Virus record (IMG/VR): IMGVR_UViG_3300046004_002771
Span: 1 to 27,609 of that record
Length of the DNA stretch: 27,609 nucleotides
Reading direction: 5' to 3' (one strand)
DNA from: a virus
Shown: positions 2,645 to 26,000 of the stretch, one piece after another
Position numbering within the stretch: the stretch's first letter is position 1
Layout: the number at the start of each line of letters is the position of its first letter
Position numbers and translations under genes: made by a program
Notes under the pieces: generated by a model
What the model saw: only the letters and a program-made list of their open reading frames with translations
What the model was told of the DNA's origin: nothing
Database searches by the model: none

Positions 2645-4525
2645 ATGGCGCCGACATACAGAGCAGATAAACCAATTAAGGGTTATAGAGCGATACTGCC
2701 GACGACCGGCGTATTTGGTATGCACATCGGTATCGTAAAGAAAAACGATGATCCTCAACGAATGGGTCGTTTGATGGTCTGGATACCGGAGTTCGGTGGT
2801 GATCCAGATAATGCGACTAATTGGATCAACGTTAGCTATGCGTCTCCGTTTGCTGGTTCCACGCCGTCCAGTGCTTTGAGAAAAGATGGCGAAGACATGG
2901 CGTCGTCATCGCAATCTTATGGTTGGTGGGCAGTGCCGCCCGATCTCGATAACCAAGTTCTGTGTTGCTTTGCCAATGGCAATATCTCGCACGGGTATTG
3001 GATTGCATGCATTTACCAGCAAAACATGAACCAGATGGTTCCCGGTATTGCCTCTGCCACGCCGACTGATGAACAAGCCGTTCGGTGTGGTGTCGAGCCT
3101 CCGACTGTTGAATACAACCGATGGAGTGATCAGAATCCAAATGCACCTCGCCGCCCGGTATTTGAACCCCTGGACGGAGGATTGTCACGAGAAGGATTGT
3201 ATCCAGACCCACAACGCGGACCTTCTTCTACATCCGCGAGACGTGAGGCCCCGAGCGCAGTATATGGAATGCTGTCGCCGAGAGGAAATACCTTCCATAT
3301 TGATGATAATCCCGAAAACGAGTTCATTCGGTTGCGGACCAGAACGGGAGCACAAGTTCTCGTCAACGAAACAACCGGCTTCGTTTACATCAACTCCCGA
3401 GATGGTAACTCGTGGATCGAAGTCAGCGATGTCGCCGTGGATATTTACAGCCTCGGAACCGTGAACCTTCGTTCGGAAGGTTCGCTGAATATCCACGCCG
3501 ACGCCAGCCTAAACATTGAAGCTGATGGTAATCTCAACTTCCGTGCTGGTGGAAACATCACGATGCAGAGCGCGGTGAACCTAGACGTGTCGGTCAATGG
3601 CCACACGGCATTCAATTCTGGTGGCGCATTTTCTGCTGTGACCAATGGAGACCTTGGGTTGGTATCAGCCGGGGCGATCGGTCTGGAAGCCGGGGGTAAT
3701 ATTTTCCAGGGCGCGGGCGGCAATCATGTTCGTAATGCCGCGATCATCTATGACAATAGCGGCGGGTCTGGGTCGGCAGTTAATTTGACTGCGGCGGTCG
3801 CCACGATGAACACACTCCCCGAGGTTACTGGCGAAGCCCCGTGCTACACGGCCACGACCCGTAAAACCATATTGCATAGAATGCCGACGCACGAACCGTA
3901 TGTCGAGCACCCGTCTGCGGGAGATGCCCCGCCTGCTTCAAAGGCGTCCGAGTATCCTACCGCAGAAGAAACCGAATCAGTCGCCGATGGGCCTGTTCCC
4001 GTTGGCGAACCGGCCAATTCGATTTCAAACCTCTCAGCTACTGAATTGGATTGGTTGACTTGCTGCATGATCGACGAGGCGGCGAACCAGGGCGATGATG
4101 GATTGGCCGCTGTCGCCCAAGTCGTCAAAAACCGGATGGCGATGCGCCAATCCAGCGATGGCACGATCAAGTCTACGGTGTTGTGGCCAAACCAGTTTTC
4201 GGGTTTCTATTTCGACACTTCGCCGAAGTGGCATCGTGTTTGTTCTGATCGCAAATGCGCGGAACAGCGCGGACTTCAGAAAATAGAACGATACAAGAAG
4301 AATAAATCAAAGTGGGATCATGCATATGACATCGGTAGACGAGTCATGGCCGGGACCTATAGCGGCGGCGCGGGATATCAAGCAATCCGAGCCAACAAGA
4401 GATGCACGATGTATCTCAACCTACCGGTAACCAAGGCAAACAATCCAAAAGGAAGTTGGACTGGTTGGGCCAAGGATTCCAAAAAAGTAACCACAGTCAA
4501 GGACCATACATTCTACCTAGCATGA
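2645..4525 (+). CDS. gp5: Baseplate spike (gp5-like) with OB-fold, octapeptide beta-helix and SleB-type hydrolase domain
   Basis: This 626-residue protein is a membrane-piercing tail spike. Residues about 22-110 contain the OB-fold seen in gp5/VgrG spikes (FGMHIGIVKKNDDPQRMGRL, then VWIPEFGGD). Residues about 272-359 consist of about eleven consecutive eight-residue units such as SLNIHADA, SLNIEADG, NLNFRAGG and AIGLEAGG, the pattern of the T4 gp5C trimeric beta-helix. After an acidic, Pro-rich linker, residues about 457-626 match the SleB/Hydrolase_2 cell-wall hydrolase family: a Glu at residue 478 in DEAANQGDDG, AVAQVVKNRM, PNQFSG, and a terminal DHTFY. The second Glu of the usual EArGE motif is Gln here. 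In T4 the lysozyme sits before the helix; here the hydrolase follows it. A GGGAG ribosome site at 2633-2637, seven bases before the ATG, supports the start. The stop overlaps the next gene as ATGA. Confidence 0.9.
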   Translation: MAPTYRADKPIKGYRAILPTTGVFGMHIGIVKKNDDPQRMGRLMVWIPEFGGDPDNATNWINVSYASPFAGSTPSSALRKDGEDMASSSQSYGWWAVPPDLDNQVLCCFANGNISHGYWIACIYQQNMNQMVPGIASATPTDEQAVRCGVEPPTVEYNRWSDQNPNAPRRPVFEPLDGGLSREGLYPDPQRGPSSTSARREAPSAVYGMLSPRGNTFHIDDNPENEFIRLRTRTGAQVLVNETTGFVYINSRDGNSWIEVSDVAVDIYSLGTVNLRSEGSLNIHADASLNIEADGNLNFRAGGNITMQSAVNLDVSVNGHTAFNSGGAFSAVTNGDLGLVSAGAIGLEAGGNIFQGAGGNHVRNAAIIYDNSGGSGSAVNLTAAVATMNTLPEVTGEAPCYTATTRKTILHRMPTHEPYVEHPSAGDAPPASKASEYPTAEETESVADGPVPVGEPANSISNLSATELDWLTCCMIDEAANQGDDGLAAVAQVVKNRMAMRQSSDGTIKSTVLWPNQFSGFYFDTSPKWHRVCSDRKCAEQRGLQKIERYKKNKSKWDHAYDIGRRVMAGTYSGGAGYQAIRANKRCTMYLNLPVTKANNPKGSWTGWAKDSKKVTTVKDHTFYLA

Positions 4526-5115
4526 CAAACATTTCAGCATTCAAAATCACGCCAACTGTGTTGGCAGCAATCAGACACGCTCACGCCGTGTCGCAAATCG
4601 ACTTCGGTTTCCTTATGGCAATGTGTGCTCAAGAAAGCGCATTTAATCCATTGGCCAAACCGGGAATCAACCCAAAGACTGGCAAGAGATATTCCAGTGC
4701 CGTTGGCCTGTATCAATTTCTCGATGCGACCTGGGCGGGCTTAGTTCAAAAATATGGGCTCAAGTATCGAATTGGTATCAATGATCGAGAAAATCCCATG
4801 GCGAATGCCATTATGGGTGCGTTGTTTGCCAAAGAGAACGCCGACTATCTGACCAAGAAAGGTCACAAGGTCGGGAGAACGGAGCTATATATGGGCCACT
4901 TCCTCGGAGCCGGTGGAGCAAACGTGTTCCTTAGTGCTTTGGCGAAAAACCCATCCGCAAAAGCGGCTAACATCACGGAAAGTGCCGCCAAGGCCAATCC
5001 GTCGATCTATTACAAAAACGGCGTAGCAAAGACGCTGGCTGAAGTATACGCGTTTTTCCAAGCCAAGATTGAACCCAACGCAACTGCTTTTGCCGCTGCT
5101 TATAAAGCGGCCTAA
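4522..5115 (+). CDS. SLT-like lytic transglycosylase, probably virion-associated or endolysin
   Basis: This 197-residue protein has the lysozyme-like SLT fold signature. The catalytic Glu is E38 in AMCAQESAFNP, followed by SAVGLYQFLDATW at residues 59-71 and an aromatic/Gly-rich segment (YMGHFLGAGGAN) typical of the helical core. Such enzymes cleave the MurNAc-GlcNAc bond of peptidoglycan. There is no signal peptide or membrane segment, so the protein either needs a holin for export or travels in the tail. I chose the ATG at 4522, which overlaps the stop of the spike gene as ATGA. An in-frame ATG at 4402 lies inside the hydrolase domain of the previous gene and is unlikely. No good ribosome site precedes 4522, so translation is probably coupled. 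Position after hub and spike suggests a tail-tip function; a lysis endolysin is the alternative. Confidence 0.85.
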   Translation: MTNISAFKITPTVLAAIRHAHAVSQIDFGFLMAMCAQESAFNPLAKPGINPKTGKRYSSAVGLYQFLDATWAGLVQKYGLKYRIGINDRENPMANAIMGALFAKENADYLTKKGHKVGRTELYMGHFLGAGGANVFLSALAKNPSAKAANITESAAKANPSIYYKNGVAKTLAEVYAFFQAKIEPNATAFAAAYKAA

Positions 5116-5837
5116 ACGATTTCGTGCCTACCCAGTTTCAGGGGATGATCTTTTGGTCTCCTGATCTGGGGTTCGGCGGGAAGCTGCAATTCTTCCAACC
5201 CGCTATCTCTGAAGAGATAGTGGTAAAAAGGCACTTCTGGCGGACAGCCAGGATATTTTGAATCCGGGTAACGGCCAGCGTGACGATAGAACTCGCATGC
5301 ACGATCGAACGATGGCGAGGCGCCATAGAAGAACAAGTCACCAACTCTTCTTCCGAAATTCGGATCATCATACGAGTGGACGGTATAGAGAGTATTTGGT
5401 TCCGGTATGGGAAATCTTGCCAGAACCGATAGCGGCTCTCTGGCAAATACCAAATCCATTCGACCACGAACGCATATGTCGTAATCAAATCCATTGTCGA
5501 TTTCGTGATTACGCTTCAACTGCGACGCAACCATCATTGAATAGAATTGTGATGCTTGCCATTTAACCGATGACGGTTCTTTGCTTTGACGAATGATGCC
5601 GCGTTCTGGTTCCCGACACCCGTCGATACGCATGGCGACTGGCTTATATGCACTTCGAAATTTCTCGATATCCAAGGGGTCTATTTCATGATCACCATCG
5701 TGGGTCGTGTTCTTGGACCATGTGTGGACGAAAATATCGAATTCGACATCGCCGTGACGGCGAAACATTGGTTCCCACCATGAAAGACACGACTCCCAGG
5801 TTCGCATCTGACCGGATAAGCAAATCGCTACTTTCAT
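5112..5837 (-). CDS. Putative glycosyltransferase-like protein (CLSGQMRTW type)
   Basis: This 241-residue protein begins KVAICLSGQMRTWESC. That opening is shared by a loosely annotated set of glycosyltransferase-like proteins in phages and viruses, usually followed by a D-x-F-x-H-x-W segment (here FDIFVHTWS at residues 33-41). YDICVRGRMDLVF at about 119-131 resembles the R-x-R-x-D-x-x-F metal/sugar-nucleotide region of that set, with D128 as the candidate acidic ligand. It is the last gene of the minus-strand unit. Its ATG overlaps the stop of the 275-residue glycosyltransferase as ATGA, and its own stop overlaps the stop of the convergent transglycosylase gene. Substrate and acceptor cannot be read from the sequence. 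The transferase call is moderate because the family is poorly characterised. Confidence 0.65.
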   Translation of the reverse strand: MKVAICLSGQMRTWESCLSWWEPMFRRHGDVEFDIFVHTWSKNTTHDGDHEIDPLDIEKFRSAYKPVAMRIDGCREPERGIIRQSKEPSSVKWQASQFYSMMVASQLKRNHEIDNGFDYDICVRGRMDLVFAREPLSVLARFPIPEPNTLYTVHSYDDPNFGRRVGDLFFYGASPSFDRACEFYRHAGRYPDSKYPGCPPEVPFYHYLFRDSGLEELQLPAEPQIRRPKDHPLKLGRHEIV

Positions 5838-6661
5838 TTCATCTCTATGAAGAAACGTGAGATGCTGGGTTCGAGATATCGAATTTCGATGCCGGTAGCG
5901 AGCATGATTTTGTTTTCCAGACTATCGATGGCCGCGCGCATATCGACTTTCGATGCCTCGTTTTCCCAGTGATCATTGAACCAATCGAAATCACGAACGA
6001 CCGTTGGATCGAATCCCTCGTCCAACATGCGTGCCCACCCTGCCCGAGTTCCGAAAATGGCGGCATCACCAAACGGTGTGTGCGATCCAACACAAGACCA
6101 CATGCGAAGGTTTCGGAGATTGAAAGGGTGTAGGTCGATCATTTTTTCAGGATCAACCCGGCGGCCCCGATCCATGCAGAGTTTGACGCCTTCTCGAAAT
6201 CCAACCCGGTAGGCTTGATAGTTGGACCCGAACTCTACGCTCGAATATACGATGGACGAATGTTCGTAGCCGTCTTGCCAGCAAAAATCGATAGCAGTGT
6301 CGGATGAATCATTGATTTCGTGTCCGGCGCCGCCGTTCAGCACAAACTCTTTATTCCAAATCTTGATCCCGCCATTGCCGTATTGGAGACCGTTTATGGT
6401 ATTACGAGCGGCATAGGACAAACAGGCCGAGACAGCAGGAGCGGAATTCTGTTCAAAGAACGATTGATCAACGACGTTGTCAGCGTCAATGGTGATGAAC
6501 CGATCAGTTTCGGATAACTTTGCTGCCATTTCATGGACCGCGCCGAAACCTTTCACTCCATGAATTCGTTGAGCCCATGGTGCTTTGTTCAACAGGTCGG
6601 CCCAATGCTCCTCGGCGTTGGGCTCATCATAGGATAGGAAAAACAAGTCTAGTTCATTCAT
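5834..6661 (-). CDS. GT-A type glycosyltransferase
   Basis: This 275-residue protein shows a GT-A-like glycosyltransferase pattern. The N-terminal strand LDLFFLSYDEPNAEEHW resembles phage glycosyltransferases opening with S-Y-D-E-P-N. A conserved HGVKGFGAVHEMAAKLS segment precedes the D-x-D metal/nucleotide-sugar motif ITIDADNVV (D59, D61). Residues GGAGHEIND and the C-terminal DFDWFNDHWEN may contribute to the acceptor pocket. The start ATG overlaps the stop of the 166-residue gene (ATGA at 6658-6661), and the stop overlaps the 241-residue gene in the same way, so the product is made as part of a coupled cassette. It could modify tail fibres, virion proteins, phage DNA or host surface glycans; the sequence does not decide. 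The fold-level call is fairly confident. Confidence 0.8.
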   Translation of the reverse strand: MNELDLFFLSYDEPNAEEHWADLLNKAPWAQRIHGVKGFGAVHEMAAKLSETDRFITIDADNVVDQSFFEQNSAPAVSACLSYAARNTINGLQYGNGGIKIWNKEFVLNGGAGHEINDSSDTAIDFCWQDGYEHSSIVYSSVEFGSNYQAYRVGFREGVKLCMDRGRRVDPEKMIDLHPFNLRNLRMWSCVGSHTPFGDAAIFGTRAGWARMLDEGFDPTVVRDFDWFNDHWENEASKVDMRAAIDSLENKIMLATGIEIRYLEPSISRFFIEMK

Positions 6662-7158
6662 CGCTTTATCGTAATCGGAATTGTTGTCGGGCTGGTATAT
6701 ATATCGTGCGTCTTGTTCCGTATTCCTAACGCGTATTCGATCGAAATTTCCATTTCAGCACGGGGCGTGAGTAAAGCGCAAAGAGCTAATGGATCGTCAG
6801 CTTCCGTTATCGCGATAAAAGGATCGTCGGTTAGCCAAATTCGATCAAAGGCCCCAGAGAGCGTCAGGAGACCGTTCGCGTGGTTCACGACACCGAGTGA
6901 CGGGCCAGACACTGAACGGTCTTCCACGGCTCTCCTGAGGCCTGGGGGACCATGATTGATCGTTGTCGATATCATGGCAAGGCAACCGGCCTCGTTCCAA
7001 CCGATATACCAATCAGATGGCGAGAGTTCGCCGCGAAGGAAAGATCGTGCGGTCTCTTCGTCGATTTCGATTTTGGAATATTGCTCTAACGTTTCGTCGG
7101 TTCGAAAGGAAACGCCACGAATGCTCCCATCGGTATCATAATACATATGGGCGGGCAT
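6658..7158 (-). CDS. Hypothetical protein within the glycosyltransferase cassette
   Basis: I do not recognise this 166-residue protein. It begins with MYYDTDGSIRGVSF at residues 5-18, a short beta-rich opening with a charged DTDG turn. Residues about 30-50 follow an FLRGELSPSDWYIGWNE pattern reminiscent of small phage virion-associated proteins. The middle is beta-rich and there is no membrane segment, cysteine cluster or signal peptide. The start at 7158 is favoured over the in-frame ATG at 7146 because an AAAGG ribosome site lies seven bases upstream of it. This makes the gene overlap the end of the 291-residue glycosyltransferase gene by 23 bases, the longest overlap in the cassette. The stop shares ATGA with the 275-residue gene. 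Being enclosed by transferases suggests an acceptor, adaptor or structural protein, but that is inference. Confidence 0.75.
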   Translation of the reverse strand: MPAHMYYDTDGSIRGVSFRTDETLEQYSKIEIDEETARSFLRGELSPSDWYIGWNEAGCLAMISTTINHGPPGLRRAVEDRSVSGPSLGVVNHANGLLTLSGAFDRIWLTDDPFIAITEADDPLALCALLTPRAEMEISIEYALGIRNKTHDIYTSPTTIPITIKR

Positions 7159-8011
7159 CGAGCAGCCTTTCGTATTTGGAAATTATATCATCGGTCAGAG
7201 CAGATTTGACATGATAGTGAACCGGAAGTGTTTGCTGAAAAACGCCGATATGAACCGATCCATCATTGTGTAGTTTCAAATCTACGTGTTTGGTCCAGTC
7301 GTCATTTGACGTTTCTGGCCAATTTTGCAATTTGGTTTTCATGTGAACGAATCGCGGGATCGGGAAACCCGAAAACGTCATGGTATTTTCGGCATCCAGA
7401 ATTTTAACCGCCATAGCGAATACGACATCGGTCGTTTGGGGCTGCCTCGTTTGGGGCGTCAACCTGTTTACGAAGTCGTCCCAGTTGTTCCATATCGTAT
7501 CGACCATATCGAAAAGTTGCTGGGCGTGGTCTGAGTGTTTGAAATACATGAAAGCGGTGTAGATGTTCGGAAGTTCATTATCGGTAAAGACCCGTCTGTA
7601 ATGATCCGACGTGATGGTTTCGCCGCGATACGTTTCTACAGCGGTCGATATCCACACATCTTGTTTCGCTAAAATGTCCCACCATGCACTGATGTCTTCC
7701 GAAAATAACATGTCGGCATCTAGCTTTATGGTCTCTTCATACGGAGAGACGTGATAGGCCTTCCATTCATTTTCCAGTTTCCATGCCGATTCTTCAGCCG
7801 CATCACCCCATGGAACTTCTATGATCTCGTCAAAGACATCTCGATACTTGGGTTCAATTTCCGTTCCAGGAGTAACGATGATAGACAACCACGGAATGGT
7901 TGATTGTGATGTCTTCAAGCTCATCGCTAAGGCATAGGCCAGTCGGACGTAATCAATAGACGAATTTTGGGCGATCGTAAGAAAGCCACGCTTTCGTTTG
8001 AACTCCCTCAC
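7136..8011 (-). CDS. Putative GT-A glycosyltransferase, paralogue of the 278-residue neighbour
   Basis: This 291-residue protein carries a D-x-D motif in TIKLDADMLF (D98, D100), preceded by KAYHVSPYEET. The same arrangement, AYHLSPYDET then MMIDADYLI, occurs in the gene immediately upstream, so the two are evidently paralogues. Later segments such as PNIYTAFMYFKHS and PQTTDVVFAMAVKIL fit the acceptor-side half of a GT-A enzyme, and a His-rich PVHYHVKS lies near the C-terminus. The start is GTG rather than ATG: the upstream gene's stop overlaps it as GTGA, and a GAGGA ribosome site lies seven bases before it. The alanine- and leucine-rich opening (residues 11-32) is the usual first Rossmann-like strand and helix. 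Sugar donor and acceptor are unknown. Confidence 0.75.
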   Translation of the reverse strand: MREFKRKRGFLTIAQNSSIDYVRLAYALAMSLKTSQSTIPWLSIIVTPGTEIEPKYRDVFDEIIEVPWGDAAEESAWKLENEWKAYHVSPYEETIKLDADMLFSEDISAWWDILAKQDVWISTAVETYRGETITSDHYRRVFTDNELPNIYTAFMYFKHSDHAQQLFDMVDTIWNNWDDFVNRLTPQTRQPQTTDVVFAMAVKILDAENTMTFSGFPIPRFVHMKTKLQNWPETSNDDWTKHVDLKLHNDGSVHIGVFQQTLPVHYHVKSALTDDIISKYERLLDARPYVL

Positions 8012-8844
8012 TGGTATTCCTCGATTATGTAGTCGGCATTTCGCATTATCGCGAACTTGTTCATCACGTGGATGTTGAAATCCCGTATCCTGGCCAGAGT
8101 CCCATCTTCGCTCACGAAGGTGAAATCGTTTTTCGCGACGTTGATCAAATCATCATTTTCTCCGGCAACCATCATAGTCGGATACGGCAACTGAAACACA
8201 TTGTGTTTCAACACATGGGCCGCGATGCTGAACGAATAATCATTTCGATATAGGCTGCCAGGGAAATGATATATTTGCTGGTAGTAGTTGTAATGGTTTC
8301 GGATATTCTCAACCATACCGAAGAAACGTTCGGCCAGCGGTGTCTTTCTGAAAAACACAGATGTGGCCCAATACAATGGGATGCCGTATGGCTCTAGCCG
8401 CTGTTCGTTTTCATGAAGTGGTTCGTGCTTTAGTGATATCGCGGTTTTGTTGGCCATAACATCTGCATATGAAGACCAAACCGCATCGAGCGTGTTGTCC
8501 ATGATGAGATAATCGGCATCGATCATCATCGTTTCATCATATGGCGATAGGTGATACGCGTCGGCCCGAGCACGATTTCTCCAGAGCAACCGATGTGATG
8601 CCTTCATCGTATCATTGAAACGTCTGGTTTGCGTTTCGCCGCCATCATGCAGGATGATTTGGTCAAACGTTTTTACCAAGTTGCCGCGTTTTTTGATCAG
8701 CCACTCGACGCTGTTCTCATCGGTCACCAGGGTAACCTTTTTTTCGGACGAGTTGGCGCGGATCATCAAGGCGTTGCATAGAGCGATATCGGTGTAATCG
8801 ACCTTGTCGTTATTGTATCCGTATATGAGAAAGCCACTACTCAT
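8008..8844 (-). CDS. Putative GT-A glycosyltransferase
   Basis: This 278-residue protein has an N-terminal strand (GFLIYGYNN), a second strand KVTLVTDENS, and a D-x-D motif MIDADYLI (D109, D111) preceded by DAYHLSPYDET. This is the order expected for a retaining or inverting GT-A glycosyltransferase. YGIPLYWATSVFFRKTPLAERFF at about residues 152-174 and the aromatic segment RNHYNYYQQIYHFPG (about 182-196) are candidate acceptor-binding parts. It is paralogous to the 291-residue gene downstream. Its start shares ATGA with the stop of the 112-residue gene, making it the first enzyme of the glycosyltransferase cassette that follows the tail fibre genes. Whether it modifies the fibre is inference from location. 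Confidence 0.8.
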   Translation of the reverse strand: MSSGFLIYGYNNDKVDYTDIALCNALMIRANSSEKKVTLVTDENSVEWLIKKRGNLVKTFDQIILHDGGETQTRRFNDTMKASHRLLWRNRARADAYHLSPYDETMMIDADYLIMDNTLDAVWSSYADVMANKTAISLKHEPLHENEQRLEPYGIPLYWATSVFFRKTPLAERFFGMVENIRNHYNYYQQIYHFPGSLYRNDYSFSIAAHVLKHNVFQLPYPTMMVAGENDDLINVAKNDFTFVSEDGTLARIRDFNIHVMNKFAIMRNADYIIEEYQ

Positions 8845-9179
8845 TTGATCAAAGCCTCAACTGTCCGCTGTTTTCTGAGTTTTTCAAAATCAGAGAAATA
8901 GCTGTTGGTGGCTTGAAAATATATGTCTGAAATCTTGGATAGGAATGACTCCACGTCTCTAATCATGATCGGAGTATCGCGATCGTCGATCAGAACAACA
9001 TCCCCATGATGTGCCATTGCTGTGCAGAAATTTATGAGTTCTCTCGTTATCCGAAAGGTTCCGCCATTGCAGCTATAGAGAAGAGCAGCCTCGTATTTGA
9101 GCCTGAGATTTTTCCTCGTAAGTGCAAGAGTTGCTGAATAATTCGCTTGCGCGAGAGCAGCCGATAAACGTTCATCCAT
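8841..9179 (-). CDS. Small conserved-looking phage protein at the head of the glycosyltransferase cassette
   Basis: This 112-residue protein lacks a signal peptide or membrane segment and is predicted to be mixed alpha/beta. The segment LLYSCNGGTFRITRELINFC, then DVVLIDDRDTPIMIRDVESF, then a helical tail ending EKLRKQRTVEALIK, looks like short proteins encoded near tail genes in T4-like phages of cyanobacteria and alphaproteobacteria; this is from memory and has not been searched. The ATG lies inside the 3' arm of a perfect 11-bp inverted repeat, and the only purine-rich ribosome-like sequence (GGGG) is two bases from the ATG in the hairpin loop. Translation is therefore likely poor unless the hairpin opens. 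The stop overlaps the next gene as ATGA, so its translation rate would influence the whole cassette. Confidence 0.75.
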   Translation of the reverse strand: MDERLSAALAQANYSATLALTRKNLRLKYEAALLYSCNGGTFRITRELINFCTAMAHHGDVVLIDDRDTPIMIRDVESFLSKISDIYFQATNSYFSDFEKLRKQRTVEALIK

Positions 9180-9217: not shown

Positions 9218-11152
9218 TTAAGCTGCTGCTGTTCCGCCGGTCTCACCATAGCTCGGCCATGTGAATTCGACAAAACCAGGATTTCCTGCGCCGCCGGGCC
9301 AATTGTAGGATTCCGCTCGGTCTTTGTTGCCGCTGCCGCCGCCGCCAGAACCGTATCCGGTGCCAACTTTACCGGTAGAAGCTCCGCTGTATTGCGCGCC
9401 GCCCGCTGTCGTGCCGCCCAAACCACCAACAGACCCGACCAGGGGTCCTGCGGCGCCGTTACCACCGGAAACGCTCGACGTGTCGCCCGAACCAACGCTG
9501 CCGCCCTGGCCGCTGACGCCATTTGGTGAGCCGCCAGCACCGCCCGCAGCTTGTGAGCTATTGGGGCGACCGTCTTGTCCTTTGCTTCCGCCCGTTACCG
9601 TAATTACCGGAGTTCCATTTTTTGAAACAATGGTTGATCCGGACGCGGTGTCTCCGACATCAGTTCCGCCCGGAGGATCGCCCGGAGCATCAAGACCACC
9701 TTGTCCAATGACAAAGCTGAAGACATCGCCCGGTGTGCAAGAGACGGGTTCGTAATGGACCCAACCGCCGGAACCGCCGCCGCCGCCGCCGCTACCATCC
9801 CCTTCGGTATGTCCGGTTCCTCCGGCGCCACCGCCGCCGATCACCCACGTGAACATGACCTCGGTCACCCCGGCAGGAACAGTCCAGTCACCATCGGTTG
9901 TGATCTGTGTTGTTGTTGCGTTTAGTTTGTTGACGGTGAAAGAGAAATTACGCGTTGACGACGCCGAACCATCGCTTACGGCGATTGAGAATGGATATGT
10001 CGTTGCAGTAGTAACGATTGGGAAATTACCCGACAACAATCCGCTAGACGATAGCGTAACTCCGGGAGGAAGCGATGTTCCATTGACGAGAGCATAACTG
10101 AGCGCGCCGCCTTCTGGATCGGTGGCGGCCAATTGAACCGAGACCGCCGCTCCACTGGTATTCGTTCCGAGACTTCCAGATGCTGTTGTCCAAGTTGGGG
10201 CTTGGTTTGATGCGCTAAATGAAGTCACGGTGGTGAACGTTGGCATTCCAATCGAAGACAGATATGTCGCTCTAAGAACATCGACATGTAATGCAGTTCC
10301 GGAAAGCAATCCAGTCTCGGCCACTTCCGCGTTCGTATATGCATCATCAAGGACTACCGTAAATCGAATTCCGGTTCCATTTCCGCCGTTGACGTTGGCT
10401 CTATTCAAAACCTTCGCAGTAACGGTTACGTCGTTCATGGAATACGCGCCGGTTCCGAGATTTTGTCCGTTAAGAACTGTTGTCGGAGTAGATGAACCCA
10501 AGCTATAGAAACCAACATTGGAAACTGCCGCTGACGCCGTTCCGGAAATGGAAAATGATCCGGCCTTAAGTGTCATTGTTCCAATCGCATTGCTTAGCAA
10601 AGTTCGCCAATCTGCGTCCTTGGTGGTTCCGCCCGATGGATGAACTAAACGAATGCGTAGTTCTCCTCCCGAATTGAAGAAATATCGTGCCGCGTTTTCC
10701 GATCCAAAATCCACATCAAAAACGCCGGTAATGGCGGTGCTCCAGGCTCCGCTTCGCGTCAACGTAAAGGAAGACGTGGACAAGGTCATCGACGCTGCAT
10801 CAGCAGTCAGACGATTGGTATCGATCGCCGCGATATAACTATCGAGGTCGTAAGTATTAGATGATGGTGCAGCTTGTTCGTGTGCAAAAATGGTTTGGCC
10901 CGCAGCAAACGATCCCGATGGCGGTAGGTTTGTGATTGACGTGCCTTGGTGCGTTGCGCATACCGCAATCATCGATCGTAGATTTGTCCAATGGCTGGCG
11001 GCGACGTTCGCACCAACCACGACATTGCTCTGCGTTACGGTGGTCTGACCGTATCCGCGATTGCCTGTTCCGACTCCATAGATATCTCGCACTGAGGCGA
11101 GGAAGCCGTTCAGGTCCGCAGCAGCGATAACGTCTCCCTTACGATAAGCCAT
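9218..11152 (-). CDS. Tail fibre with Ig-like domain and glycine-rich tip
   Basis: This 644-residue protein has three parts. Residues 1-75 (MAYRKGDVIAAADLNGF, then GTGNRGYGQ) are an attachment-type N-terminus like those of other T4-like phage fibre proteins. A long Ser/Thr-rich beta region follows. Residues about 315-413 match the putative Ig/cadherin-like He_PIG fold (ATDPEGGALSYALVNG, then LPPGVTLSSSGLLSG). From about residue 422 the protein opens WTVPAGVTEVMFTW and continues as a glycine-rich domain with Gly runs, comparable to the polyglycine-type adhesin tips of some T4-like phages; this part probably binds the host. No good ribosome site precedes the ATG, two bases after the previous stop, so coupling is likely. 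The Ser/Thr-rich content and adjacency to glycosyltransferases make it a candidate glycosylation substrate. The Ig and Gly-rich calls are firm; receptor binding is inferred. Confidence 0.85.
   Translation of the reverse strand: MAYRKGDVIAAADLNGFLASVRDIYGVGTGNRGYGQTTVTQSNVVVGANVAASHWTNLRSMIAVCATHQGTSITNLPPSGSFAAGQTIFAHEQAAPSSNTYDLDSYIAAIDTNRLTADAASMTLSTSSFTLTRSGAWSTAITGVFDVDFGSENAARYFFNSGGELRIRLVHPSGGTTKDADWRTLLSNAIGTMTLKAGSFSISGTASAAVSNVGFYSLGSSTPTTVLNGQNLGTGAYSMNDVTVTAKVLNRANVNGGNGTGIRFTVVLDDAYTNAEVAETGLLSGTALHVDVLRATYLSSIGMPTFTTVTSFSASNQAPTWTTASGSLGTNTSGAAVSVQLAATDPEGGALSYALVNGTSLPPGVTLSSSGLLSGNFPIVTTATTYPFSIAVSDGSASSTRNFSFTVNKLNATTTQITTDGDWTVPAGVTEVMFTWVIGGGGAGGTGHTEGDGSGGGGGGSGGWVHYEPVSCTPGDVFSFVIGQGGLDAPGDPPGGTDVGDTASGSTIVSKNGTPVITVTGGSKGQDGRPNSSQAAGGAGGSPNGVSGQGGSVGSGDTSSVSGGNGAAGPLVGSVGGLGGTTAGGAQYSGASTGKVGTGYGSGGGGSGNKDRAESYNWPGGAGNPGFVEFTWPSYGETGGTAAA
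9774..9791. repeat. (CCG)6 triplet run in the tail-fibre tip coding sequence
   Basis: Six consecutive CCG units, read as six glycine codons on the minus strand (the GSGGGGGGSGG stretch of the fibre tip). It is an in-frame triplet repeat, so slippage would change glycine number without frameshift. Shorter runs occur at about 9330-9346 and 9830-9839. Confidence 0.9.
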
Positions 11153-11154
11153 TG

Positions 11155-12036
11155 TTAACGAGTTCCGATCACCGCCAAGACAAGTCCAACATCATCGATT
11201 TCTTTGTCTTCGAGGGCGCGGCCAACCATGAAGCCATAGACGCCACCTTCGATCTCGGAGGCTCTAGCGGCTCCGGGGGTTTCACTCATTCCGAGGACAT
11301 CGCCCTTTTTGACTTTACCTAAAACTTTCACTGGGACCCGACCCAAGTAACCAACAAACGGATGTGTGTCGTCGGACCCCGCATCTTCGTTCATTCGAAC
11401 TCCAGGGTTTCCGGAAATAACACCGAGGCAATATCCATCGCTCCAGAATGACTTACGAATTTCGCCGTCTCCGCCCAACCCGACGATGTCTCCGATTTCC
11501 AATGCTTCGCTGGCTTCAAATCGTTCGGCAACGTCAGCGTAAACCGTGGAGGTTGCTTGTCCCTGGAATTTAACACCAACGACATCGCCGCTTGAGTTAC
11601 GAATTACGGCGGTCAACGGAGTGGCGGGGATAGCAGAATCGTATCCGTCAAGATAATCTGCATTTAGATTGGCGACTTTTGTCTTGCTACTTGTAACAAT
11701 AGGAGCAACACCATCTGGACAAGTAAGAACAAGCTGATATCCGGTTAGGGTAGCCCCGTTTGACGAGAACGATGCAACGATTGCCCATGCCGATCCATTA
11801 TAGAGTTTTAGAGCCAAACTCCCTTTATCAAACCACAATTGACCGATCAACGGATTGGCCGGAGCAGTGTTCGACGCGTGATTTTCGAGAATTTTGACTA
11901 GGCTTTCCGCAACCGGAACACCATAACCAGCCGTGCGGCGACCGACGAGAGAAATCGAACACGCACCCGTGTTGACCGTTCCTTCTTCAATCGTTGTTAG
12001 GACCGTTCCGTCCGACTTGTGAATAGTATAGGTCAT
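11155..12036 (-). CDS. Fibre-associated structural protein with a DVAERF-type C-terminal domain
   Basis: This 293-residue protein begins TYTIHKSDGTVLTTIEEGTV and continues with SISLVGRRTAGYGVPVAESLVKILENH and PLIGQLWFDKGSLALKLYNG. This N-terminal module is common in T4-like phages of cyanobacteria and alphaproteobacteria and resembles fibre-attachment sequence. From about residue 165 it has YADVAERFEASEALEIGDIVGLGGDGEI, then LGVISGNPGVRMN, then VGYLGRVPVKVLGKVKKGDVLGMS. This resembles the peptidase G2/IMC-like chaperone-type domains of some fibres, which can self-cleave, but I cannot show cleavage residues. A GGAGA ribosome site four bases before the ATG, plus a CATAAATA motif at 12065-12072, supports expression from this point. 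Confidence 0.7.
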   Translation of the reverse strand: MTYTIHKSDGTVLTTIEEGTVNTGACSISLVGRRTAGYGVPVAESLVKILENHASNTAPANPLIGQLWFDKGSLALKLYNGSAWAIVASFSSNGATLTGYQLVLTCPDGVAPIVTSSKTKVANLNADYLDGYDSAIPATPLTAVIRNSSGDVVGVKFQGQATSTVYADVAERFEASEALEIGDIVGLGGDGEIRKSFWSDGYCLGVISGNPGVRMNEDAGSDDTHPFVGYLGRVPVKVLGKVKKGDVLGMSETPGAARASEIEGGVYGFMVGRALEDKEIDDVGLVLAVIGTR

Positions 12037-12094: not shown

Positions 12095-12694
12095 TCACGC
12101 CATGTATATTCTAAGGGTGTAGACGATTTCGATGATTCGGTTCAATGATTTCTGGATAGGATGGAAAACAACATGGGTCAGAAGTTTTCCTGCGCCTTGC
12201 TCGGTATCGAACGCTTTCAGTCCTAGCTCATCGAATACATAATCACTTTCAGTATCTGTGGCGTCGTCGAATGCTTCTTGGCCGGATGGTTCATTGTAGT
12301 CGAGCGTGCAAAGAACAACGATGTCGCTATAGAGGCTGTTAGCGGTGTGCTGAACCGTGATCTTGTTTTTCAATCGATCCGGGGCAGACATCAATGGGCT
12401 CTTGTCATCGACCAGTTTTCTGAATGTCTGGTTGTATAGTTCGGAATCCGTTCCCGTAGCGTTTGGCGGGAAATAAGTAATAGCTCCGGTTCCGGAAACC
12501 GTTGAAGCTCCGTTACCAAATACCATTTCATGAATATGGCCTCGCGCATCATTCGATAGCGCGAAACCAAGTGCTTCGGACATGTTTTCATAGTTGATCG
12601 CGTTCATTCGATCACACAGGACTTCACCGGTCCCGGCATCTCGAATCAAAACATGTCCAACCATTTTGGATTGGCCGTTGTCAATCAATGGCAT
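12095..12694 (-). CDS. Putative tail/virion structural protein
   Basis: This 199-residue protein begins PLIDNGQSKMVGHVLIRDAG, then TGEVLCDRMNAINYENMSEAL, GHIHEMVFGNGASTVSGTGAITYFPP and a beta-rich C-terminus. Proteins of this type accompany tail-fibre genes in T4-like phages; I assign no exact function. The N-terminal GHVLIRDxxTGEVL stretch is mirrored in the 52-residue protein that overlaps its start (12681-12839). The ATG at 12694 is supported by an AAGGG ribosome site, though translation could also begin at the internal ATG eleven codons on. The gene lies between the giant structural gene and the fibre genes, suggesting a linker or fibre-base part. Confidence 0.65.
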   Translation of the reverse strand: MPLIDNGQSKMVGHVLIRDAGTGEVLCDRMNAINYENMSEALGFALSNDARGHIHEMVFGNGASTVSGTGAITYFPPNATGTDSELYNQTFRKLVDDKSPLMSAPDRLKNKITVQHTANSLYSDIVVLCTLDYNEPSGQEAFDDATDTESDYVFDELGLKAFDTEQGAGKLLTHVVFHPIQKSLNRIIEIVYTLRIYMA

Positions 12695-12840: not shown

Positions 12841-12848
12841 TATTTATA
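12841..12848 (-). promoter_or_regulatory. TATAAATA late-promoter-like motif
   Basis: A full match to the T4 late -10 consensus on the minus strand, overlapping the giant gene's TAA stop (12844-12846). Initiation roughly five to six bases downstream would fall about at the start codon of the 52-residue gene, making that message leaderless or serving the 199-residue gene instead. The position between the giant gene and the fibre module is a plausible place to restart transcription. Short motif, so not proved. Confidence 0.6.
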
Positions 12849-21800: not shown

Positions 21801-23052
21801 CTGCAATTAGCAGGCGATCTCCGTCTTGAATCGTATTGAAGTAATCATCCGATACGGTTCCGATTGGTTTACCGTTGATCTGGGCCAGAGCAACACTGCC
21901 CTGTTCCCAACGTTCTTCATCCCACGGAGTGGTATCCCAGCCAAGAATGTAGTTGGCCGGTCCAGTCAATACCTTATCGACATCCGCAACATGTTGGCGG
22001 CCATAGTTGAATAGCTCGATGTCTTGGATGAACTCAATGATGGGACGAGAAGCTTGATATGGCTGGAAATTACTCCGATCCCAACTGAATGCTTTTTTGT
22101 GCACCCAACGATTGGTTTTGCTCCAACCATTCTGGTCACTAGATCGACGATCTATTGTTGTATAGATGGGATCAAGAGCGGTTTCATCATCCGAATAGGG
22201 AGTAAAAACGATTGAAGTTCCAACTCCATCGACATAATACGTTCCCGTGACTGTTCTCGTTATCCCATCTTCAATGGAAATTCGATGTCCTGATGTGAGA
22301 AATTCGAGGTCGGTTAGGGCAGCCGGGTGTTCTGCGTCGATAAAATCAACGATGTTGAATGAAGACTTGCCTTGAATCAGAGTCCGCAAATTGCTGTAAC
22401 GATAAACCTCAACGACTGCATTGATCCCTGGAGTCGAAATCGACAAATTATTCCCAGATCGGGAATAATTTACCGAAACGCCATTGACGAAAACTGCTGG
22501 GCTTTCATCGCCGATTTCAAGGTCTCCCGAAACGGCAGGCATAGCGAAGACGCTGGTCGAACCATTGCCAGTATACTGTGCAATCGGCGATTTCAATGCA
22601 AGAATTGGTTGTTCCACGACATCGCCATTGTCGTCAGTGTTTAGGCTAAACCAGTAATACTGTTGGAAGTTGTTTATCTTGTCCAGGTCGAGCGGCGGAC
22701 CCCACGAATAGAAATCGTTCTCGAACATGCGAGAATGATTATTGTCCAGGGCGCCGTTTGCCCGAAGATGATTTACCAAGTCTGAGTAAAACAAAACGCG
22801 GTCGATGGCGGTGTCTGAGATAGACACCATCGTTGGTTCTAGTTGACGCGAATACCGTTCGATCGTCGGCTCGGTAATGTAGAAATCAATCGTGTCGTCA
22901 TAGTAATCCGGGTATTGGCCAATATATCCGGTAAGCGTTTCCGCTTTACCGGGTTGGAAAGCCTGATCTATAGTCGCAGCAAAGAATTTACGAAGATCAT
23001 CCGTTCTGAGGTGCGGGGGCAGTAGGTCTATAATTCGGCGTTTGTCAACCAT
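12844..23052 (-). CDS. Giant 3402-residue virion structural protein downstream of gp6
   Basis: A single uninterrupted frame of about 10.2 kb. The start TAATG overlaps the gp6 stop by one base. The N-terminus (DKRRIIDLLPPHLRTDDLRK, then FFAATIDQAFQPG, YIGQYPDYYDD and FYITEPTIERYSRQLEP) resembles large structural proteins found after gp6 in some T4-like phages. Repeated beta-sandwich modules of about 60 residues share a V-x-V-x-x-x-G-V-x-x-x-x-x-x-Y/F-x pattern. I see them at about residues 154-219, 774-860, 2852-2925, 2939-2994, 3012-3072, 3087-3144 and 3312-3377; four of the last five run almost consecutively. A YIDEVKPYRVKTRDF segment occurs at about 2594-2615. The protein probably belongs to the baseplate wedge or a fibre-like extension; position is the main evidence. 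I cannot name a T4 counterpart. Confidence 0.75.
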   Translation of the reverse strand: MVDKRRIIDLLPPHLRTDDLRKFFAATIDQAFQPGKAETLTGYIGQYPDYYDDTIDFYITEPTIERYSRQLEPTMVSISDTAIDRVLFYSDLVNHLRANGALDNNHSRMFENDFYSWGPPLDLDKINNFQQYYWFSLNTDDNGDVVEQPILALKSPIAQYTGNGSTSVFAMPAVSGDLEIGDESPAVFVNGVSVNYSRSGNNLSISTPGINAVVEVYRYSNLRTLIQGKSSFNIVDFIDAEHPAALTDLEFLTSGHRISIEDGITRTVTGTYYVDGVGTSIVFTPYSDDETALDPIYTTIDRRSSDQNGWSKTNRWVHKKAFSWDRSNFQPYQASRPIIEFIQDIELFNYGRQHVADVDKVLTGPANYILGWDTTPWDEERWEQGSVALAQINGKPIGTVSDDYFNTIQDGDRLLIAATVPGYPQFSHRIVTVETTFDVEGIEVIVLIPEPASNDGDIATLSGTNIEFFFNGTVWGKAQEFSPAEAPLFNLYDVDGVALDDETIYTDSTFAGNRLFSFALGTGRVDAVLGQPLKYDKNGQIVFENDIASRRYTYDGGSVKGFHFFRQMAPNPANDAFVNDWHFTNDTTRQIATSDGVFSIPANLQANPNNDEVTFITRGQWFDHFNAILTSQDDFDGVAYSTNNWRDTARVLSKGTRILQHRSPLLKTMLLASDPAFDYMNAARFVEQEYTRFRNRFVQKTIEFYNNGQINPVSLDDDGPDTWVELILTSMKANKTSDFAFSLSKVGGGQNFIPPTPASMGLAQAARPATITDLTFPSPIVFLQGHDGSRTPIFGEILTFEYDDNDDVVLTQDPHGPVTITVDGDELDESDFTQMGRLIRLTASIASGATVVVTVNDVRDQALLALENKIFDAIIAEFGPDDEVYLQTDPIFRLEQWVEGKYRENSSENSTYSRSEFNQIMSPMFLRWAQNNQLDFRTNATYDANDPFSWNYRLTPDRNGASVPGHWRGIYRWYFDTDRPHIAPWEMLGFANQPDWWEDEYGAAPYTSENTDMWHDLRDGVIRSGAREGTDTRFARPGLMDVLPVDDTGELLDPIASRIIPTQPTEYLASRPWVFGDHGPVENLWRISISYGFSIAKAAFLMKPARWVEFGWDTVNNRIVHQDQLIYNETGNRPNNSSYSVHGEVDDNGSKISRYGIQQWISEHLISKGQSPSILGLAVRGLDARLSHRMAGFTTDENLRVMADNFGLVPEENVQIVLYTSPSIREEFYSGVIVEWTGESWRVIGYDATNPSFSVIPGDPYGPHVTVRLEEGAEELVIVEWRPNVFYQTNILVSYKESTYRALRAHTSSSTFESDYWKAEPGLLRSQTLRVEKYTSALDEIAAVPYGTEFNSIQDVASFLFDYERYLVSRGWVFDEREPESGIVTDWTQSVREFLNWSQVQWAPGHFITLSPGADKIKFVTDHGMVYDLEQSFKGVYGMVDRAGMPINRRDTFVTRMDGELTITVNGSSLYGIRLSVGEIEHALIFSNQTIFDDVIYNPLLDLRQPRLRLIGQRSQDWAGRMDAPGYVLIDNKIKPNFEKASEDIRTAFEIEGTDNKTLHDYARHLMGYESRNYMTEMVLSDTEQFEFYLGMIKQKGAPDVFNKLLRSTFIGQARDLVFNEEWALKAASYGALEATQRAAFDLTQSSLNREPQLVRFVETSSSDIIGIKTTDFLEIPAIKSAFFPVRSGLDSKKGDMPTAGYARLTDVNYTLFHIADVQDLYLEKTQALSGTMQEGVDRPGFLLNGERIWVYDYNNEWSILRSSHMSADGEKNRIRRIDVPLDSNALVTSRLYFENAHGLTDSDVGLLMIVDGTTELQGIQTITDVGDDWVDILTVGEDAYVWITQSGDPTPDETANIEDEALAPSVRILRSVRFASEADRDENGGFVPEDELVYVDATSDSNGPLTDGWKVFSKTSDGWTAVRRQPRVMDSSRITSALLYDKSTVQTSSLLNAEPLLLNHISVYDPARGLIPGPADINISFKLEFDPACYNQGYELGENVWGLEQVGLLWWDISAVRFVETETNDPLIIPDTTEVQYRAENWGTIAPGTTIDIYEWTRSLKLPENWNGDGTPYSPDGNYSWTETTEFDPNLNKTITVYYFWVKGAISAPIMTGRTLPAATVARMVNNPSAFDIPWIASLAPDCFIVSGISQYLNDTSSVMQIEIDNLPNNDGVVHTEWTLIREGDQLPPDHLWDRMVDSVVGMNARFQSVPDRLLHNTSRQGISIRPRQSLFAGSQHTIDETIMAARESLVGMINTILARSERPGWYSGLIDLTDTWQLSVDELENKLFWSSSVGTDISLPSSKEYDFEVFSIEERDELVLRDDVAAMIGTIRIFVNRVADAIPQWSVWEYDTASHEFAIASVYDDLVSTIAERDALRVGDTPLEVGHRVMVSDTGRGFWGLFRHIPEAPSGWETLRLQSYNTTPFISEIDWYADGYSAANPPVVHYATVNEFTIAEADSEKSPFVSIANDGTGRWIWKIPSGSSWETVARENATVALSADFYDNSRLPYGRDGVFDLDVIATRDGGNELRALLHALRESFFTDDEVNELFFSMVHFAHAHQDQINWAFKTSFMHVSGFNEKLEQTPVQRPDNISAIVSYIDEVKPYRVKTRDFSRTLSPPEIDQGTVTTTDFDKPRYYDNAMTAYRSLNLSVPGDLAILSTDDRYVKWYENYLKTGTDIDEYNSATWNPIRRLTTTLVFDRIDGVTVPNSVSVNDTVTLGSTLLDNGLLLGAASKIEAHYNPTDTMAEKNIAALMNLNFKGPLTDGDKLANQLTVEMEVTGLDMSNANVSANAITLSLNPNVDGRVGLLLNDPDWDDDHPEELVLAGHYDNLSIKVRGYGRPGAPEQEVKLWTRSSLNITTGSATVPFVSIPQSSEAVLVFRDGKRAPTSAYTIDLFARTATVDMAHPDTTPVEQVIVHVFGIGSESQIREMLFYKYSSPDPQTFAITESGAVEVIVNGVATSGFTVASSVVTITDSLADNDQVMIVVRENISGEESIRVRTQTFSYSGTRTFTVTNLSSPSNVNTMIVEVDGIRLIPTTEYTISGSTLTIAGGVSMTNGVSYVTVTTFPSSASMSMTTQSFLGNSTGIYPLSSVPVSKEYVWLTKNGVRVSSTEFNLTEDGIFFTAGHEVTDDFRATVFAANAASLPHGFIASTIIPTKAIMRPFVDGDWDTGLWDDDEWDSGVGTVTEEVPSGVYLGEFRAINHMDGGWEYSRLSNFRDGSLSVALLPTTNASVTPMMTSTGILGDTMFRKPQSDSPSVAWIGNERVEYGLVEWDDETGAFVLKSMRRGTKGTAIGQVSYRMQHIDGTGSRTVFDLDDASSDQVLVYVFDQDGVSTAKQKDIDYDVVLIGNVARVTFNTAPLASETVMIYENISSHTHPIDTSVVTVAEVFYPSNTRL

Positions 23053-26000
23053 TATCGGATTCTCAAATTCGCTGCGGTGTTAGAGTTAATGATTACGACA
23101 TCAGATACCTGAGCCGTAGAAATGAATAGTTCGTCGCTTCTGCAACGGATTTCGAAACCTTCACCGAAGCTGCCTTCTCCCGACAACGGGACCAAAACGA
23201 TGCTGGCGATCGATCCCGCGAGTCTTTGGTGAATGAAGCCCGACAGTTCGGTATAGTAAAACGTGTCTCCGAAATCCCAATACGACACATCGAAGAACTC
23301 GTTTATGGCGCGAATGACGCGGCTTTTGATTTCCCCGTCGCTCAATGTGGAATTCGACAACTTGACGACCTTGAACTGTGCGCGAAGCTCTTGGGGGGCT
23401 CCAGTGCCGAACAAGAACTTGTATTGGACCGGTCTCCAAACGATTCCGTCACTGAACATGCTGTAATTCTCTAGATCAGCAAATGCCAACCGAAGATCAA
23501 GTTCAGATGGGGGTAGAGGAAGATCGGCTACCTTGGCTCCATTGGCAATCCATTGACGAGTTACGTAATCATATTCGTTGGTCAGCACAAAAATGTCGAT
23601 AATATTCGTCTTTGATGGGTCAATTCTATGGTCGGTTGGCGCATAATGTTTCCATTGAAACGCAATAGGCAATTGACGAACATCAGTTGATGTCGTTTCG
23701 CCATCGGCATACCATTCCTTGGCAACGTTTGGTCCTCGGCCTCGGCGATAACGGAATTCACGATACAACCTCGTCCACACGAGGCTCGATCCGTCCTTGG
23801 TTATTTGCCAAAACGTATTCGATGGGGTTGATCCATCAACCAACTCAAACGCCACGGTTCCTTCTGCCAGATCGGCCAGGGCAGCTACGCGATCGTCTCG
23901 TGTTTCGTAAACGATGACTTTGTTGGTAGGCAGGTAAGCTCCATCAGAAGACCTTTCCCAGAAAAGATATGGCGCGGCGTCGATATCTCCGATCACACGA
24001 ACGTAGGTGTCGGGATCATCGGGCTGGCCGTCTTCATCCGAATCGAAGAAACGAACACTCACGCGACGAGGTTCGGCATAGCCGTCTGCGTAGAGGATAA
24101 GCTTGTCGATCGCGAGATCATATGGCCGTTGAAGAGCACGACCAGAGAGGCCACCTTCGGTATCTAATGCGGTTACGTCTTCATTGGTGGGCAGAACACG
24201 GATGAGATCGGCATTTTCCAATCCCGTCGATCCGTCAATCGTCTTGGCGCCTTCGAAATACCATTGAACATTCTCGACGCTTTCGAAGACATAGCGTAGG
24301 CCGCGAATTGTCAGGCGCCAGATGCCAGGAAGACGTTCTGCAACCAGCATCTTGATTCGCGTCACGCCTGACGAGTCATCAAATTCTGGAGTAGAAACAC
24401 TATCCGGGGAACCGACTTCCCAATGCTCAGCAGTGATAGTCGGCGAATAGTTATACCACAGTGTGAATGGCGTATTGTCTTGCAACTTTTCTTCAATGGC
24501 TGAAAATGCGTCGCCGCCAAGAGTAGACAGGTAACGAGGGATGATCCGCGTGATAGTTGCGTTGTCGGCAACTGTTTCAGTCAACGTCACGGGTCCTTTG
24601 TAGTTCGTAGCTGGTGCCACATTGAATGCAGAATCGATTTGATCAATCGACACCCATTTCTTGACACCACTTTCACTGACTTCCAGGATTGCTCCCGGTC
24701 TAATCAATACACTGCTATCCAGTCCAGTGAAGTATCCAGTAGAAGAGAACTTGCCGGACGTGCTTTTTCTCCACCGAGCATCTTCTGGTGCAGTCACAAC
24801 ACGGTCGAGCAACATGCTCCAAGCATAATTTGCTGCTTGTCGATCGGACAGGAGAGGCTGAATGCTCTGTGACACGATTTCGCTGACCGACTGTCCAAGG
24901 CCGGTGATGACTTCGGTATAGAGGTTGGCGGCTTCGTTGTAGAAAATGCCATCATCGCTGAATACGTTCGTGTCTTGATAATTCCCAGTAGGATCATTCA
25001 AGTCGATGAAACGCGAATGTCCAGAATACGTCCGGTTAATCGCTTTCAACTTCATAGCAAGGTTGGATTGAAGCGGGAAGATGTTGTAATCTTCGCCCGA
25101 CACCATTCGATTCTGGGTCGCATACACTTGCGGTGCGCGGCGACGAATTTGTTCGTCGGTTTCGCGCAGAGCCGAGTTGCTTACTGGCGTTTGTAGAGAA
25201 AACGTCAGATACAAGCTACGCTCAACACCGCGACGGTTCGTATACCGGAAAGGCATACGGATGCGATCAATTTCCTGGGGTCGAATCGTGTATTGGAGAC
25301 CATTCGACGTTCTATAGGTGACCCGAATATTGCCGTATGGAGCACTACCAAAACGACCATCCGAGAAACGAATGCTGATCCGGTCATCATCACGCGTGAT
25401 GACTTGGAAAATGTTCCGAGTCGTTACCGGGAGGCTATTGAAGGTGATATTATCACTAAACAGTGACGGAACTTTTTCCCAATCGACCAGGATAGTGCCA
25501 CTATCGTTGATGGTTTGAACCCAAACGTCAGTTTCGTTGATCCCCGTCGTCTCGATATCGAGGATTTGGTTTTCAATCGGCGCGGCGATCGAGAATGTTT
25601 GGCGATTGGTCGAACCCTGCTTGAACAGCATGAAGAACCCAGTGTCGTTTGACGAGTTGCCGTTGCCATCGGCTCGATAATAGAACTGGAACGCGGAATC
25701 GGTATTCGGGACTCGCTCAGTGAAGCCACCGAGGTCATCAAAATCACCGTTGCAGAGTTCGAAATCGGTTCGTTCTCCGCCGGTTGTGGCCGAAAACGAT
25801 AGTGACTGGCCGCCAACGCTATTGTTCAGTCGGTAGGATTGCGTGCGAATTCCGCCAACTGTCCCAGAAGAAATCGGCTGGCCGAATTGGTTGTTGGCGA
25901 CAAATGCATTGTTCAATACAAGGATGAACCGTTCGAACCAATCAGGATCGTCGGGATTATCCCACTCGACGATCGTGTTTGCCAAGCTGATGCCATATGA

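Follow-up and report, generated by a model that had tools for sequence, protein, structure and literature searches.

Glycosyltransferase genes close to phage fibre genes, and the glycosylation of virion proteins by phage-encoded glycosyltransferases, are both already known. In pelagimyophages, GT8 genes beside the tail fibres have been read as modifiers of the host O-chain (PMC7029224), and cyanophage glycosyltransferase clusters have been read as systems for capsule or O-antigen synthesis (PMC7824862). Mycobacteriophage glycosyltransferases glycosylate capsid and tail-tube subunits, according to the citing passages of PMC12619734 and PMC12363180. Virion proteomics of the Xanthomonas phage XacN1 revealed at least two glycoproteins, and its authors suggested phage-encoded glycosylation (PMC5852040). 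Here we describe a gene cassette in the 27,609-base IMG/VR virus record IMGVR_UViG_3300046004_002771 (the window, i.e., the whole stretch of DNA that was analysed), where a small gene, U112, and then the open reading frames (ORFs) GT1, GT2, U166, GT3 and GT4 lie behind a fibre gene, FIB, on one strand (Table 1). The arrangement suggests viruses that decorate their own fibre with sugars.

The closest isolate relatives, Agrobacterium phage Atu_ph07 and Sinorhizobium phage Phosso, also carry an enzyme cassette in the equivalent slot behind the fibre genes. It differs from the cassette in the window in that radical-SAM genes, in Atu_ph07 joined by a JmjC/cupin gene, take the place of the glycosyltransferases, and FIB is absent. 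XacN1, a related jumbo phage, resembles the window in having glycosyltransferases after its giant structural gene, in addition to its virion glycoproteins. However, its enzymes belong to other families (GT9 and PF11397), and it lacks FIB, U112 and GT1–GT3. Members of the PF11397 family are known modifiers of cytosolic protein. Judging from the gene contents of Atu_ph07, Phosso and XacN1, this slot repeatedly collects modification enzymes within this phage group.

The host recognition cluster of pelagimyophages likewise lies behind a large baseplate gene and has GT8-type and radical-SAM genes next to its tail-fibre genes. In contrast to the near-fixed gene order and the DUF4376-like gene of the window type, this cluster is hypervariable and non-syntenic (PMC7029224). 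The mycobacteriophages Che8, Corndog and Myrna offer a parallel for phage-encoded glycosyltransferases acting on virion proteins, as cited in a passage of PMC12363180; their acceptors are capsid and tail-tube proteins, with a proven effect, whereas the acceptor in the window would be a fibre. A literature search on glycosylated tail fibres, of incomplete coverage, returned nothing relevant, and a near-fixed operon of fibre, putative chaperone and glycosyltransferases of such breadth was not described in the literature searched.

Conservation of the cassette among uncultured viruses

Over 150 IMG/VR contigs show the order FIB-U112-GT1-GT2-U166-GT3 with hardly any deviation. Scans seeded with U112 and GT2 returned 196 and 167 relatives, respectively, and the best 80 of each were examined. 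U112 sits directly behind FIB in 66 of 80 loci, and GT1 immediately behind U112 in 74 of 80. Wherever the contig extended far enough, FIB was found upstream of GT2 (69/69) and GT3 downstream of it (66/66), also after dereplication (39/39 and 37/37). In each of the 160 loci the cassette genes share one strand, and neighbouring genes usually overlap by a few bases (median spacing of -4 bp for both U112/GT1 and GT1/GT2), with overlap counts that are upper estimates because ORF starts were called mechanically. The median ratio of nonsynonymous to synonymous substitution rates (dN/dS) is 0.06–0.10 for U112, GT1–3 and U166, which indicates purifying selection, versus 0.135 for FIB. Since the order recurs, the catalytic-type aspartates are kept and dN/dS is low, such a gene set lies well outside what chance would produce.

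Behind GT3, relatives usually carry a twitch-domain radical-SAM gene (E=2e-96 in contig L008) or a similar ORF, at the place where the window has GT4. In some relatives a UDP-sugar dehydrogenase gene follows downstream of the cassette. Relatives of GT1, U166 and GT4 could be collected only with alignments, as viral scans with single sequences were unproductive. A tblastn search with GT1–GT3 and U112, from the window or its relatives, found no relatives in 50,697 isolate phage records, and one scan of 84,980 cellular genomes with a GT2 pattern, which sees only loci matching short peptide patterns, returned nothing.

The five minus-strand ORFs between positions 5112 and 8844 of the window have the lengths, D-x-D positions and overlaps given in the initial annotation. 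Neighbouring cassette genes overlap by 4 bp, with GT2/U166 (23 bp) as the sole exception. The same annotation had placed the enzymes directly after the fibre; they do follow FIB on its strand, but it had omitted U112, which begins 38 bp behind FIB and shares 4 bp with GT1.

Coupling of the cassette to the fibre

The proposed coupling of cassette and fibre is strongly supported by comparative genomics, not only by the near-fixed order but also by co-occurrence and co-divergence. For co-occurrence, the conserved gene F3 was chosen as a seed independent of both FIB and the cassette. Among its 53 informative contigs, 37 have both FIB and the cassette, 16 have neither, and not a single contig has one alone (Fisher p=7e-14); dereplication leaves 21 with both, 8 with neither and again none with one alone (p=2e-7). 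A FIB-seeded scan found U112 at most three genes behind FIB in 49 of 49 cases with room for it. Across 53 dereplicated loci, in which GT1 differs on average at ~62% of its amino acids, the distances of U112 and GT1–3 track those of FIB after removing the effect of F3 (partial r 0.55–0.62). None of 2000 permutations gave a partial correlation as high for FIB, and F3 explained nothing significant beyond FIB.

Residues 1–330 of FIB represent the conserved FIB family, and the remainder carries an Ig-like domain and a Gly-rich domain (PF21722). It is very probable that FIB belongs to the virion, because the PA5oct/Paride-group Pseudomonas phages carry a FIB homologue in the same slot (hidden Markov model E=1e-52), and the PA5oct record notes detection of this homologue, gp360, in virions by electrospray ionisation tandem mass spectrometry (ESI-MS/MS).

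Predicted enzymes

The locus had been annotated as having four glycosyltransferase-like genes, and this is supported for three of them: GT1 by homology to GT2, GT2 by its glycogenin profile and GT3 by predicted fold; GT4 is a candidate. GT1 is paralogous to GT2 (blastp 2e-10; profile-profile probability 99.3%), and the GT2 profile matches glycogenin-2 in the PDB (E=5e-4) over the nucleotide-binding half, including D-x-D. This match is weak, and GT1 and GT2 are therefore assigned as GT8-like at the superfamily level, with a predicted activity. Both aspartates of GT1 (D109 and D111) are kept in 178/178 relatives, D100 of GT2 in 166/166 and D61 of GT3 in 212/212. The first aspartate of the GT2 motif, D98, is kept in 158 of 166 relatives and replaced by Glu in the others, and that of GT3 is Asp or, rarely, Glu.

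The AlphaFold2 model of GT3 (predicted local distance difference test score, pLDDT, 80.8) has a GT-A domain at residues 1–149. Its best Foldseek matches are glycosyltransferases (fucosyltransferase WrtF, E=1.7e-4), and the VIA-align comparison with B4GALNT1 gave Z 10.3 with a root-mean-square deviation of 3.0 over 137 aligned residues. The nucleotidyltransferases MobA and IspD reach Z ~10 and thus tie with the glycosyltransferases, so that the model places GT3 in the GT-A superfamily while its glycosyltransferase reaction is a prediction. GT3 and GT2 are not related at the profile level. Scans of single window proteins against Pfam, NCBIfam and PHROG named no enzyme, and PDB profile searches with GT1, GT3, GT4 and U112 gave chance matches only.

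Some relatives have additional features at these genes. Four contigs have an ORF between GT1 and GT2, possibly a 2-oxoglutarate-Fe(II) oxygenase (L010 2660-3241, L013 6865-7443, L017 7482-8063 and L030 7501-8097); we do not claim this identity, as the match had E=0.04 only, for L010. Short relatives of GT3 in L021–L029 sit in radical-SAM-like gene arrays, and several of these contigs have ORFs that, by eye from their translations, resemble carbamoyltransferases, amidinotransferases and sugar dehydrogenases. In L031–L033, proteins of 1,279–1,290 amino acids fuse a GT3-like C-terminal domain to ~10 'FDFSWRPDPREPPFIYVWGNKY' repeats.

U166 of the window scores 19.1 bits, over its N-terminal third, against a family profile built without it, while the best of 1000 shuffles reached 3.1. 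By this score it is a genuine, degenerate member of the family found between GT2 and GT3. GT4, which has an R-x-R-M-D motif, is a putative enzyme. It matches phrog_13607 and has no PDB profile match, and one relative matches DUF7796. Several other contigs have GT4 relatives behind the cassette, and those in isolates lie in cyanophage sugar clusters.

U112 as a putative fibre chaperone

DUF4376 is the C-terminal domain of gp27 of Alteromonas phage V22, a protein identified as a tail-fibre chaperone of a new type (PMC7289586), and also occurs in the tail-fibre chaperone of Alteromonas phage A5 (PMC10579305). The model of U112, built from a 46-sequence alignment, has a pLDDT of 93.5. Its top match in the viral structure library BFVD is an uncharacterised phage protein, followed by DUF4376-domain proteins (E=1.9e-4, probability 1.0), which predominate among the matches. 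U112 thus resembles the V22 and A5 chaperones in its predicted fold and in its position just downstream of the fibre, and may act as a chaperone as well. It differs from them in being shorter, in its coupling to glycosyltransferases and in its sequence, as discussed below. Prefoldin beta subunit, suggested by the top PDB structure rows, is not claimed for U112, as Z 7.2 lies in the noise range.

Proposed mechanism

The best-supported reading, which we consider about evenly balanced, is that the locus is a chaperone-coupled fibre-glycosylation operon, with FIB glycosylated in the cytosol. FIB, U112, the cytosolic GT-A enzymes GT1–GT3, the variable GT4 and the accessory U166 would form one virion-morphogenesis operon. 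U112 would bind the newly made FIB chain, and GT1–GT3 would transfer host nucleotide-sugars stepwise onto Ser/Thr (or other) residues of FIB, which would yield a glycosylated fibre on the virion. We infer co-transcription, the chaperone role, FIB as acceptor, the sugar and its linkage from the near-fixed order, the all-or-none occurrence of FIB and the cassette, their co-divergence, the fold of U112 and the glycosyltransferase assignments. The proposal also draws on XacN1, where the slot holds other glycosyltransferases and virions contain glycoproteins. The more general version, a widespread operon of aquatic jumbo and large myophages in which several GT-A enzymes add a glycan to a single fibre family as the fibre assembles, is tentative, and we rate it a little below even. 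An effect of the modified fibre on receptor binding or immune recognition, as put forward in the initial annotation, would be a further step. Animal immune recognition is an unlikely selective reason, because this phage family is found mainly in environmental contigs.

Several observations weigh against fibre glycosylation. Because F3 is farther from the cassette than FIB is, linkage alone could yield the co-divergence. Neither U112 nor a glycosyltransferase homologue was found downstream of FIB in the PA5oct-group phages, which indicates from gene content that the cassette is not universally required for FIB. The Ser/Thr richness of the fibre, to which the initial annotation pointed, is real: FIB has 23.9% Ser+Thr, its family averages 24.6% and cassette-bearing FIBs have 24.5 +/- 2.8%, compared to 12.6% for other ORFs. 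Yet it is not diagnostic, as the FIB homologue of PA5oct, which has no cassette, reaches 22.2%, and after this control we dropped it as evidence for glycosylation. N-glycosylation sequons showed no excess over PA5oct either. Finally, the DUF4376 sequence signature had no match among the 46 U112 members at E up to 0.1, which limits the likeness to fold and position.

Alternative explanations

The main rival is modification of the host surface. The enzymes would alter the lipopolysaccharide O-chain or capsule, and thereby block superinfection or aid virion release, and their place beside the fibre would reflect a mobile host-recognition island. Pelagimyophage GT8 genes (PMC7029224) and cyanophage glycosyltransferase clusters (PMC7824862) have been interpreted in this way; the cyanophage sugar clusters with GT4 relatives, and the arrays of radical-SAM, carbamoyltransferase and sugar-dehydrogenase genes with short GT3 relatives, also fit it. 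In contrast, the cassette of the window includes no gene for a membrane protein, a lipid-linked step or sugar-nucleotide synthesis, and no transmembrane segment was found in any of its proteins. It is embedded in a run of structural genes, has a near-fixed order and is strictly paired with a single fibre family and a chaperone-like gene. We therefore regard this explanation as unlikely, while giving it more weight than any other alternative.

A second alternative keeps the chemistry and changes the acceptor, which would be F2, the giant structural protein or the capsid instead of FIB. The capsid and tail-tube subunits of mycobacteriophages, as cited in passages of PMC12619734 and PMC12363180, provide a precedent, and F2 is likewise rich in Ser/Thr (18.9%). 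However, F3-seeded contigs that have F3 and F2 and lack FIB never have the cassette, and we consider this acceptor improbable.

Still less probable is that FIB, U112 and the enzymes are merely inherited and exchanged together as a mobile host-recognition module, in which the fibre does not depend functionally on the enzymes. Unrelated phages can exchange host-recognition modules as blocks (PMC10579305), and the FIB of PA5oct functions without a cassette. Yet order and overlaps survive the deep divergence seen in GT1, and U112 lies within the enzyme run.

Glycosylation of hydroxymethylated phage DNA has its precedent in phage T4, whose alpha- and beta-glucosyltransferases are GT-B enzymes. GT3 is instead GT-A by predicted fold and GT2 glycogenin-like by sequence, neither of the T4 type, and the location in a structural operon with a tight link to the fibre makes this explanation very improbable. 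Least probable of all is a non-enzymatic role of the glycosyltransferase-like folds as structural or sugar-binding parts in fibre assembly, which the repeat fusions of L031–L033 would favour but against which the near-perfect conservation of the D-x-D residues in hundreds of sequences speaks.

Genomic context

The baseplate wedge protein of the window (23052-26393) shares 45% identity with its counterparts in Atu_ph07 and Phosso and ~40% with those of GAP32, CBB, PBECO4 and similar phages, and on these identities the window is a fragment of an Atu_ph07/RaK2-like jumbo myophage. A one-strand run leads from the giant structural gene (3,402 amino acids) through F3, F2 and FIB to the cassette. The F3 homologue of PA5oct, gp357, was also noted as detected by ESI-MS/MS. 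At 293 amino acids, F2 is shorter than its relatives (611–794): it aligns with them at both ends but lacks their middle part. The T4-late-promoter-like box upstream of F3 could mark where the operon starts, but the window has such boxes at chance level only, in a number matching shuffles. Sigma-70-type promoters were fewer in the window than the shuffle mean.

From the left, hub and transglycosylase genes converge on the cassette, with an overlap of 4 bp with GT4. As called, the hub-lysozyme-like ORF (2645-4525, plus strand) and the transglycosylase-like ORF (4402-5115, plus strand) overlap by 124 bp; the true start of the latter is probably further downstream. At the other end, an open-ended ORF on the minus strand (26853-27608; 'NTQWCTAATGSHNYFNDYADEHGRLFIILDKKT...') has no PHROG match.

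Table 1. Features of the cassette locus (positions in the window) and of comparable loci (positions in the contig or phage record named).
Feature	Position	Strand	Description
GT4	5112..5837	(-)	241 aa; R-G-R-M-D ending at D128; variable cassette member
GT3	5834..6661	(-)	275 aa; predicted GT-A fold; D59/D61
U166	6658..7158	(-)	166 aa; shortened member of a family always placed between GT2 and GT3
GT2	7136..8011	(-)	291 aa; GTG start; D98/D100; glycogenin/GT8-like
GT1	8008..8844	(-)	278 aa; glycosyltransferase-like; D109/D111; GT2 paralogue
U112	8841..9179	(-)	112 aa; DUF4376-like helical hairpin; putative fibre chaperone or adaptor
FIB	9218..11152	(-)	644-aa fibre; proposed acceptor
F2	11155..12036	(-)	Short fibre; C-terminal Peptidase_G2-like stretch (intramolecular chaperone type)
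F3	12095..12694	(-)	Conserved 199-aa protein; phrog_11259; behind giant structural gene
T4-late-promoter-like box	12841..12848	(-)	Exact TATAAATA; upstream of F3; possible operon start
'FDFSWRPDPREPPFIYVWGNKY'-repeat/GT3-like fusions	L031 6812-10684; L032 5911-9783; L033 6703-10542		Beside radical-SAM-like gene arrays
Post-fibre slot, Atu_ph07 gp165-gp172	L034 16909-23647		Radical-SAM cassette
Post-fibre slot, Phosso 283-291	L035 20272-28015		Radical-SAM cassette
XacN1 ORF328-334	L036 29561-38509		GT9, HtrL/YibB, carbamoyltransferase, PF11397 N-acetylglucosamine (GlcNAc) transferase (E=3e-77); beside giant structural gene

Implications

If the fibre is glycosylated as proposed, a large set of aquatic phages, as yet uncultured, would sugar-coat their own fibre using their own enzymes, with a dedicated tail-fibre glycosylation system of a kind that the search of isolate phage records did not find. 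The cassette would provide a compact protein glycosylation toolkit for the bacterial cytosol, and would challenge the habitual reading of phage glycosyltransferases as modifiers of DNA or lipopolysaccharide. The phage would thus encode a change in its surface chemistry that is not visible in the fibre sequence, which would be one reason why host range may be unreadable from fibre genes alone.

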